Shown here piece by piece: positions 9,018 to 11,168 of a stretch of DNA of 37,345 bases. This DNA is from a virus. Every line of letters starts with the position of its first letter. Position 1 is the first letter of the stretch. The notes beneath the pieces were generated by a model that worked only from the letters and a program-made list of their open reading frames with translations, searched no databases and was not told the origin of the DNA. The stretch covers positions 1 through 37,345 of the IMG/VR virus record IMGVR_UViG_3300014060_000004; one strand, 5' to 3'. Position numbers and translations under genes: made by a program.

Positions 9018-9968
9018 TTATTGGTTTAAACTACTAAGCAATGATTCCAATGATTCAGACTGTGACTGTTTAGCTTCTGTTTGAACAGGTGCTTCATTTT
9101 TAACAGTTTGACCTTGAACATTTTGGGCGGGTGTTTCTGTATGTTGAACATCTGCGACATTTCGAGCAATAGGAGCAACAGAAGCTGTTAAACCTTGTGT
9201 TGATGTTGATGCATCTTTTTGGTCAGACCATGTAACCCATTCTTTTTTCTTAACTAAATCATCGTAAGACATGAACGCTTCAGGTTTAGTTAAATCAGAC
9301 AACGTGTATGTATGTGCTTTGATAAACGCAAAGGCTTCTTCGGCACTATCAAAAACGCTTGTAACTTCATTAATTATTTCTGAAGAATCATAATTAATTT
9401 GGGTATTTGCACCTTTTTTAGCAACTAGTCTGAATGAATTACCTTGAACAGGATTGAATAATTCTTTAGGGGTTGCACCTAAATCTCTATCTTGTTGAGA
9501 TGGTCTTAAAGCAGCTTCGATTTTATCTTTCATCTTACCAGAATAGTCATAAAGGAATACTTTACCTTCATTTTCTGGATTAGCTGGGTCTTTTATAACC
9601 ATAATGTTTGAAATGTAACGTATTGCACGTCCGAATACTTTAGCTTCTTCTTTCTTATCAGTATTCCACAAATCTTGCCATGCTTCTTGGAAAGGACATG
9701 GTAGCCCAATAGTACTTGGAGAAAATTCAGAAACGAAACGCTTCTTATCATTTTTAATAATGGTTGTGTTGATCTTAAACATTTGCTTGATAATTGCACT
9801 TTCTGAATCAGGCAAAAATCTGATTAAAGCAGCACCATCACCGTCTTTATTCTTACTTAATGTGTAAAATCTTTCATCTTTAACAAATTTCTTATTTGCA
9901 TCTGCGAAAGGGTCTGTTCCCATTGCTTCTTTCATTGAATCGAAATTAAATGCACTTGCATCCATCAT
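9018..9968 (-). CDS. 32: Single-stranded DNA-binding protein, T4 gp32-like
   Basis: A 316-residue protein. The core matches gp32: GAALIRFLPD, ISNIMVIKDPANPENEGKVF and a C-terminal acidic/Ser-rich tail (ESLESLLSSLNQ) reached through a Gln/Thr/Ala-rich linker. Gp32 coats single-stranded DNA and coordinates replication, repair and recombination. The T4 zinc site (one His, three Cys) is not conserved: the protein has one Cys only, in GLPCPF. The gene follows gp45 and is preceded by an unusually structured leader with two repeated hairpins, in line with the translational self-control known for T4 gp32. The ribosome site AGGAG is eight nt before ATG. Confidence 0.9.
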   Translation of the reverse strand: MMDASAFNFDSMKEAMGTDPFADANKKFVKDERFYTLSKNKDGDGAALIRFLPDSESAIIKQMFKINTTIIKNDKKRFVSEFSPSTIGLPCPFQEAWQDLWNTDKKEEAKVFGRAIRYISNIMVIKDPANPENEGKVFLYDYSGKMKDKIEAALRPSQQDRDLGATPKELFNPVQGNSFRLVAKKGANTQINYDSSEIINEVTSVFDSAEEAFAFIKAHTYTLSDLTKPEAFMSYDDLVKKKEWVTWSDQKDASTSTQGLTASVAPIARNVADVQHTETPAQNVQGQTVKNEAPVQTEAKQSQSESLESLLSSLNQ

Positions 9969-9996
9969 ATTATATACTCCTATTATTATCTAAAAA

Positions 9997-10070
9997 ATCG
10001 ATTTATAGTCTCTTTGGACTTCATCGGTTTATAGTCTCTGGGACTTCATCGATAATTACCTAAGTAATTA
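9997..10070 (-). promoter_or_regulatory. Structured leader of the gp32 mRNA (two repeated hairpins plus one hairpin)
   Basis: In mRNA sense the order is a perfect 7-bp hairpin TAATTAC-TTAG-GTAATTA (10053-10070), then two near-identical units of 24-25 nt beginning CGATGAAGTC (10028-10051 and 10002-10026). Each unit forms AGTC...GACT over a 5-6 nt loop. ATCGAT at both ends (10048-10053, 9997-10002) can pair to close the whole unit as a multi-branch structure. The AGGAG site follows within 25 nt. T4 gp32 represses its own mRNA through a 5' pseudoknot and adjacent single-stranded leader; an equivalent role here is inferred. Confidence 0.6.
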
Positions 10071-10085
10071 TTAATTCGATTATTT

Positions 10086-10091
10086 ATTATA
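10086..10091 (-). promoter_or_regulatory. Possible -10 box TATAAT before the gp32 leader
   Basis: GGTATAATAAAT on the - strand would start transcription just ahead of the hairpin leader. No good -35 hexamer is present, so an activator would be needed if it is real. Confidence 0.35.
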
Positions 10092-10144
10092 CCAAATTGT
10101 TAGTTAATTTACTTAATGTTCAGTATAATAAACAAATTGTATTT

Positions 10145-10152
10145 TATTTATA
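10145..10152 (-). promoter_or_regulatory. TATAAATA box between gp45 and gp32
   Basis: Exact late-promoter octamer just after the gp45 stop. The distance to gp32 (about 176 nt) is far longer than for the other late boxes, so it would give a transcript carrying the full structured leader. It may be a chance match in AT-rich sequence. Confidence 0.35.
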
Positions 10153-10163
10153 CAAATTAAAAA

Positions 10164-10868
10164 TCAAATTTTAACAGACATAAGTATTTTAAAACCTTCT
10201 AAAGAAGAATTTGTTAAAAGAATTCGATAGTCATCTTTATCTGAATTGTATTTTACATCTACTTGATAATTAGAAACAGGTAACATTTTAAAGTTATTAA
10301 CAGGAATCGTAATATTAAATTCTTTGTTAGTATCTGCTTCTTTAATAACACTATAAGTGTTTGTTTTTGCATTAAACTTGTTAGTAGCACCTAAACTAAT
10401 ATTCATTTCACCATCTTTAGATTCAAAAATTACTTCAGTTAAATATTTAAATACACCTGACGCAGACTTAATATTCTTAATATCTTCGACATTAATCTCA
10501 AATGATGCAACACTTGGAGCTTGTTCAGTTCTTGTAAACTGTGCAGGGTCTTTCTTATAAGCATCCATCAATACAATATTATCTGTAATAAATGATGAAG
10601 AATTCCGGCCGTGTGCAACACTGATTACATTATTGTCAATGGAAATATCACGATCTTTAGGAAATAATTTAATCAAAGATAAAAATTCACCTAATGAATC
10701 TTTCATACCTAGATCAGGGAATTCATCACTATCAAGACTACTAAAATCAACAAGTGCCATCATATCCATCGATTCTGATAATGCTATTGTTTGTGGGTAT
10801 TGCAAAATTACTGAGTTTGTGATTCCATTAATCTGTGTTAATACATCGGTCATCTTATTGTTAAACAT
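10164..10868 (-). CDS. 45: Sliding clamp, T4 gp45-like
   Basis: A 234-residue protein, close to T4 gp45 (228 aa). The layout fits the two-domain clamp: TDVLTQINGITNSVILQ at the start, LSLIKLFPKDRDISI in domain 1, FEINVEDIKNIKSASGVF at the start of domain 2 and FNITIPVNNFKMLPVSNYQV near the end, which matches the gp45 segment around MANMKMQPGNY. The clamp tethers the polymerase and, in T4, activates late transcription at TATAAATA promoters, so it links replication to the late boxes here. The start follows AAGGAG, a TATAAT box and a tandem decamer array. Confidence 0.88.
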   Translation of the reverse strand: MFNNKMTDVLTQINGITNSVILQYPQTIALSESMDMMALVDFSSLDSDEFPDLGMKDSLGEFLSLIKLFPKDRDISIDNNVISVAHGRNSSSFITDNIVLMDAYKKDPAQFTRTEQAPSVASFEINVEDIKNIKSASGVFKYLTEVIFESKDGEMNISLGATNKFNAKTNTYSVIKEADTNKEFNITIPVNNFKMLPVSNYQVDVKYNSDKDDYRILLTNSSLEGFKILMSVKI

Positions 10869-10903: not shown

Positions 10904-10920
10904 ATACTAAATTTATTAAC

Positions 10921-10970
10921 ATTCGTTAAGATTCGTTAAGATTCGTTAAGATTCGTTAAGATTCGTTAAG
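10921..10970. repeat. Five tandem decamers (ATTCGTTAAG)
   Basis: Five perfect head-to-tail copies, CTTAACGAAT on the - strand. They begin 18 nt upstream of the gp45 -10 box and overlap the last codons and stop of the small membrane protein gene. One helical turn per unit suggests an activator-binding array. Confidence 0.9.
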
Positions 10971-11168
10971 ATTAAATATTTTATTAATAGTATCAGCTAT
11001 GTCATACATAACTAATATCGAAAATGAAAAATACATAGCAACAAATAAATCTAATCCTTCAATAATATAAAGTGAATAAACTGAAAATAAAATAACACAT
11101 AACAAAATTATAAAACACCTAAATTTTAGATGTTTCCAAAGTTTTTTCTCTTCTTGTAACAGTTTCAT
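10956..11168 (-). CDS. Small membrane protein
   Basis: A 70-residue protein with a charged N-terminus (KLLQEEKKLWKHLKFR) and two hydrophobic segments, about residues 17-36 (FIILLCVILFSVYSLYII) and 41-60 (LFVAMYFSFSILVMY), so it is probably a two-pass inner-membrane protein. The start overlaps the ParM-like gene's stop by four bases (ATGA), so the two are translationally coupled. The pairing suggests, but does not prove, a shared role, for example membrane anchoring of the actin-like filament. The 3' end runs into the decamer array. Confidence 0.65.
   Translation of the reverse strand: MKLLQEEKKLWKHLKFRCFIILLCVILFSVYSLYIIEGLDLFVAMYFSFSILVMYDIADTINKIFNLNES

Follow-up and report, generated by a model that had tools for sequence, protein, structure and literature searches.

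The gene order of this phage fragment raises the question of why a tandem array of very short hairpins should stand directly before gp32, the gene for its single-stranded DNA-binding protein, and of what might read it. The window (the whole stretch of DNA analyzed, a 37,345-bp IMG/VR phage fragment, IMGVR_UViG_3300014060_000004) carries on its minus strand, from left to right, genes for a primase, an exonuclease/RNase H, gp32, and a sliding clamp. In the direction of transcription, the gp45-like clamp gene (10868..10164; phrog_223, E 1.1e-18) comes first and is followed, after a gap of 195 nt, by gp32 (9968..9018), which encodes a protein of 316 aa (PF08804, E 3.1e-31; phrog_224, E 6.6e-55). 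Just upstream of the clamp gene, a 10-nt tandem repeat (TTAAGATTCG; 10916-10973, 5.8 copies, 97% match) overlaps the 3' end of a 70-aa open reading frame.

On the sense (minus) strand, the gap between the clamp gene and gp32 contains a T4-type late promoter element, TATAAATA (10145..10152, 184 nt before the gp32 start codon), followed by an 8-bp hairpin, two repeat units, the Shine-Dalgarno sequence AGGAG (9977..9981), and the start codon. The 8-bp hairpin, AUAAUUAC-UUAG-GUAAUUAU (10052..10071; arms 10052-10059 and 10064-10071), lies just upstream of the units. Unit 1 (10027..10045) is the hairpin AGUC-CCAGA-GACU with the tail AUAAAC (AGTC at 10045-10042, GACT at 10036-10033), and unit 2 (10001..10020) is AGUC-CAAAGA-GACU with the tail AUAAAU (AGTC at 10020-10017, GACT at 10010-10007). 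The general form in the window is thus a 4-bp AGTC/GACT stem, a loop of 5 to 6 nt, and then AUAAA(C/U). Tandem Repeats Finder places both units, along with the words ATCGAT and CCGATG, in 2.2 copies of a repeat of period 26 (9997..10053). The late promoter is closely followed by a 10-bp inverted repeat, TTTATTATAC ... GTATAATAAA (10083-10092 and 10123-10132); in the Vibrio phages described below, the same place is taken by an inverted repeat of other sequence whose arms are complementary too, TTATATCCTT ... AAGGATATAA.

The earlier note on this DNA had described two AGTC-loop-GACT units before gp32, and all of their elements are indeed present on the gp32 sense strand. The upstream hairpin, which it gave as 7 bp, is actually 8 bp. 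The ATCGAT elements are where it saw them (9997-10002 and 10048-10053), but they reflect the register of the tandem repeat, as does the CCGATG between the units, rather than a pair enclosing the array; ATCGAT is self-complementary, and the relatives do not generally have an enclosing pair of this kind. Similarly, the element does end before AGGAG, but at a distance of 15 nt from the last ATCGAT rather than immediately before it.

The two-unit array before gp32 is real and beyond chance. No unit matches were found in 100 shuffles, and a covariance model of the unit (R1), which includes both window units, scores them at E 2-3e-6, with the next match in the window at E 0.68; the only strong matches in the window are the two units in the gp32 leader. 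The folding energy of the leader is unremarkable (z -0.68), and the single hairpins are weak (-2.4 to -5.6 kcal/mol). The case rests on comparing phages with one another.

For this comparison, a sample of 33 gp32 leaders from the clade was used, including those of the Vibrio phages Va1 and phiKT1024 and many IMG/VR contigs. The Vibrio phages Va1, phiKT1024, pv27, phiTY18, and TDDLMA, whose gp32 is about 60% identical, have one unit, AAAGUCCGCAAAGACUUAAAA, at the same place. About 25 further relatives came from IMG/VR protein scans, most of them with a gp32 that is 53 to 74% identical to that of Va1, and their leaders contain one to four units. Only one cysteine (C91) remains in the region of the clade's gp32 that aligns by eye with the T4 zinc site, so this clade appears to have lost the zinc ligands known from the T4 protein.

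Pairing in related phages, on which the earlier note had made its proposal depend, is conserved: the stems in the gp32 leaders of relatives differ and yet stay matched. The stem types include AGTC, CGTC, TGTC, TGAC, TCGA, CACC, AGAC, AGTG, and others, and stems vary even inside one leader while the UAAA tail is retained. For example, the four units of the L112 leader have four stems (CGTC, GTTC, AGTC, and GGTC), and the L015 leader, which was missed by the first pattern, has TCGAA/TTCGA, CACC/GGTG, and AGACG/CGTCT, with UAAA or UUAAC after each of them. Other parts of these leaders also differ among relatives. L097, L099, and L100 have a different hairpin where the window has the 8-bp one, and L096, L098, L099, L101, and L106 have an extra 6- to 7-bp hairpin between the last unit and the Shine-Dalgarno sequence, with compensatory differences (e.g., GAAGTGA-TTGAC-TCACTTC, GAACCGA-TTGAC-TCGGTTC, and GAAAACC-AACTC-GGTTTTC).

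R1 was built from units picked because they pair, which makes its first pair counts partly circular, and these were superseded by sequence-only anchors and by stem-agnostic counts with controls. With the anchors, for which pairing is no condition, complementarity holds at the inner variable pair in 42/42 cases (TA in 38, AT in 3, and CG in 1) and at the outer variable pair in 36/42. The stem-agnostic unit was defined as four Watson-Crick pairs, at least two of them GC, with a loop of 3 to 7 nt and then TAAA or TTAAC within 2 nt. By this definition there are 50 units in the 33 clade leaders compared with 1.6 in shuffles (never more than 5) and an expectation of 1.7 based on the remainder of these loci; since the leaders are related by descent, the 50 are not independent events, and the argument rests on the controls and on how many stem types occur. 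The arrangement is specific to the sense strand, with 3 units on the reverse complement and 3 in the reversed sequence. The hairpin and its tail are therefore conserved at the level of RNA, and the clade, which is T4-like, has a conserved RNA leader element upstream of gp32 that apparently has not been described before.

The element is restricted to this clade among the gp32 leaders compared. The stem-agnostic definition finds 0 units in 74 gp32 leaders from outside it, and R1 has no match at the gp32 of T4, RB69, RB49, KVP40, P-SSM2, CP220, or NCTC12673; the leaders of KVP40 and P-SSM2 are without any such array. On the gp32 tree, the units cluster on one supported branch in 33/35 rows as first scored, the two exceptions being L015, later shown to have units, and the Campylobacter phage CP220, which sits on a long branch of unsure placement. 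In the complete genomes of Va1, phiKT1024, and pv27, R1 has a single strong place each, at gp32 (E 1.6e-6).

Position is conserved as well, with the units sitting between the TATAAATA late promoter and the Shine-Dalgarno sequence. The last unit is downstream of TATAAATA in 26/26 leaders having both, the sole exception among all units being a chance match in the coding sequence of L097, and AGGA, GGAG, or AAGG is found within the last 22 nt of 33/33 clade leaders. A transcript start downstream of the element, which the earlier note had named as speaking against its proposal, is thus not borne out. In phiKT1024, late genes such as those for the portal, tail tube, scaffold, and capsid have TATAAATA 28 to 42 nt upstream, in support of its assignment as the late promoter there, and its distance of 131 nt from gp32 indicates a long gp32 leader.

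A function at the DNA level, whether as tandem late promoters (with the tails TATAAAC and TATAAATC), a replication origin, or a protein-binding DNA repeat, is very improbable on these data. The second tail in the window is TATAAATC, only one base off the late promoter TATAAATA. However, the stems change on both sides together, the order of hairpin and tail is specific to one strand (50 versus 3), and a real TATAAATA is found upstream in every leader in which both occur. The units were also rejected specifically as T4-type late promoters, given the separate TATAAATA upstream and tails that vary to TTAAAC, CTAAAC, and TAAAAA.

The gp32 proteins of T4 and RB69 repress their own mRNA via a structured element and UUAAA/UAAA repeats extending into the ribosome-binding site (PMC535899, PMC3014915), and the same order of parts in these operators and in the new leaders favors a gp32 operator. 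The leaders share with the T4/RB69 gene 32 operator the gene itself (the downstream gene is a PF08804 homologue), the place in the mRNA leader between promoter and ribosome-binding site, and the order of structure, U(U)AAA, and Shine-Dalgarno sequence. UUAAA or UAAA follows the structure in the 50 units (compared with about 1.6 expected), although a TAAA or TTAAC ending is part of the definition of the unit. The architecture is different: T4 has one pseudoknot and bare UUAAA repeats, whereas here there are one to four simple hairpins with drifting stems, each with its own UAAA tail. The conserved pairs are those of simple hairpins, with no Rfam match, and no T4-type pseudoknot was recognized from these two comparisons; pairing of loop or tail elsewhere, which would make a pseudoknot within the unit, was considered by eye and rejected as inconsistent across phages. 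Together with the lack of R1 matches at the gp32 of T4, RB69, RB49, and KVP40, this agrees with the suggestion of the earlier note that the leader is built differently from that of T4. RB49 is itself without the conserved pseudoknot, and a review has asked for study beyond T4 and RB69 (PMC3014915).

We therefore favor, at a probability of about 0.43, the reading that the array is a translational operator by which free gp32 limits its own synthesis. The leader would consist of one to four modules set downstream of the late promoter and ahead of the ribosome-binding site, each combining a short hairpin whose stem sequence is free to vary with a single-stranded U(U/A)AAA(C/A) tail immediately after it. 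Each hairpin would position one gp32 beside a UAAA site, and binding would then extend cooperatively over the tails and onto the Shine-Dalgarno sequence, a spread that several modules would serve. The logic of the T4 operator (5' structure, 3' UUAAA/UAAA, and then the ribosome-binding site) would in effect be split into repeated small pieces. Binding of gp32 is known for the T4/RB69 operator; for the candidate operator here, we infer the ligand, the repression, and the cooperativity. Counted against the operator are the weakness of the single hairpins and the KVP40 and P-SSM2 leaders that have no array.

The boundary between the clamp gene and gp32, where the unit lies in the window, Va1, and others, could instead be a site of RNA processing or stability, with a host or phage RNase cutting at or near the units and leaving a stable gp32 mRNA. 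In T4, the gene 32 mRNA, which RNase E cuts 71 nt before the start codon, shows unusual stability (PMC3014915). However, the conserved tail UAAA(C/A) is followed by different sequence in different phages, and a cut site needs no multiple copies. Furthermore, the first unit begins about 17 to 27 nt after the start of TATAAATA in several leaders, close to the expected transcript start, such that there would be little to remove. We consider a processing site improbable.

A greater difficulty for the gp32 operator is that similar modules stand before other genes. In pattern scans of viral contigs, the unit also turned up ahead of further phage genes, with scaffold genes from several protein families the most frequent, but the 101 matches were not above a reversed-pattern control (at least 120), and the share lying directly before an open reading frame (40/86 versus 10/78 in the control) is inflated by the stop codon within the motif. 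A pattern scan of genome contigs gave 28 matches, which is about chance. Since such scans select for the pattern and their totals were at chance, scaffold genes were sampled by protein family in bacterial genomes instead. Scaffold genes of phrog_172, sampled within the taxonomic family of a Streptococcus genome (Streptococcaceae type), have units in 14/25 distinct leaders (0.7 to 1.2 expected), with the stems AGTC, CGTC, CGTT, CGCC, TCCG, TTCG, and AGAC. Those of phrog_2303, from another Firmicutes order, have units in 9/27 leaders (0.5 expected), although weaker family matches in this sample may not all be true scaffolds, and other genes in the same loci have units in 2/43 leaders. Searching named phages by tblastn with four scaffold proteins gave few or no relatives. 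In the loci L433-L462 and L463-L492 (e.g., L441, L448, L463, L468, and L472), a hairpin and U(U)AAA(A/G/C) stand directly before the scaffold Shine-Dalgarno sequence, with stems that are changed yet matching, and L463 has three tandem hairpins with the common loop AGACA and differing stems, each followed by AAAACUGAA or a closely similar sequence.

As gp32 cannot be the reader of the scaffold modules, either a reader is shared or similar feedback operators arose by convergence for gp32 and for the scaffold proteins. The scaffold of P22 is autoregulated, as is T4 gp32, and convergent feedback operators would fit this. A shared reader would be a widespread factor (the 30S subunit, an S1-like protein, an RNase, or another RNA-binding factor) of which gp32 is just one user, and its effect would be to raise or time translation or to stabilize mRNA between a low-output gene (the clamp; portal or protease) and a high-output one (gp32; scaffold). 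Along with the frequency of modules in both groups of scaffold leaders, near-identical units in gp32 and scaffold settings (AGTCC-GACA-GGACT-TTAAAC and AGTCC-ACCG-AGACT-TTAAAC) point this way, as does an unrelated phage contig (L164, 1264-1375, minus strand) in which a tandem array of four CGTC/GACG-TTAAAC-type units separates portal from a scaffold-like gene. However, one gene per genome has the module in the phages scanned, phiKT1024 has its strong model match at gp32 and not at the capsid gene, and the rarity of units before the other genes of the scaffold loci is unlike a general enhancer. A shared reader is thus a serious possibility, if one we rate below the gp32 operator. The earlier note had inferred an autoregulatory gp32 RNA; what stands is a conserved, pairing-preserving leader element acting at the RNA level, while an explanation by gp32 only is not secure, because scaffold genes of Firmicutes prophages have the same kind of module.

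Units before still other genes (L254, L154, and L129) likewise count against the gp32 operator. L254 (3333-6610) has NGTCCNGCGGGACN-TTAAA(C/T)ACGC before the starts of five genes within 3.3 kb, and the unit is also found before genes of phrog_2367 (L116 and L129), phrog_1366 (L147), and a major tail protein (L154/L162). The phrog_2367 protein has a Pfam SSB match below the cutoff (E 0.0075) and an acidic C terminus, and it may represent a second SSB family with a hairpin-UAAA element; its AlphaFold model is of low confidence (pLDDT 33), and in homologues found by protein (L171-L174), the unit is not clearly kept.

An Rfam scan at gathering and permissive thresholds returned nothing credible. 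The STAXI motif (RF01728) is similar in that small structured repeats occur in tandem near genes for single-stranded DNA-binding proteins, but its repeats are pseudoknots, often with UUCG loops, from Enterobacteriales, unlike the simple hairpins of the gp32 leaders, and it had no match at either threshold. The gene 43 operator hairpin of T4/RB69 is also small, immediately precedes the ribosome-binding site of a replication gene in T4-like phages, and is bound by that gene's own product; its conserved UAAC/UAAA is in the loop, whereas here the loop varies and UAAA comes after the stem. The Escherichia coli rpsA leader, which is repressed by S1, has several hairpins with A/U-rich single strands between them. 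It resembles the gp32 leaders in layout as a hairpin array with A/U-rich spacers at a strong translation start with an OB-fold reader, putative in the gp32 leaders, but it belongs to a cellular gene and its hairpins are different. As far as the available part of its description goes, the GUCCY-hairpin (PMC2864571) may be alike, its name pointing to a hairpin that contains GUCC, which occurs in the commonest stem and loop here. A hammerhead ribozyme, suggested by GUCC..GGACGAAAC, was rejected, as the core CUGANGA and GAAA are absent from the units and there is no Rfam match.

Autoregulation of gp32 is a textbook case, for which this element offers a second, differently built, and compact leader, and the isolated Vibrio phages Va1, phiKT1024, and pv27 make it testable. 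More broadly, and tentatively, hairpin-UAAA(C) may be a widespread phage leader element, single or tandem, before genes whose product is kept in proportion, with either a common factor or convergent readers. Similar modules before the scaffold genes of unrelated phages, recognized by no scanned Rfam family, suggest a general post-transcriptional device of phages.
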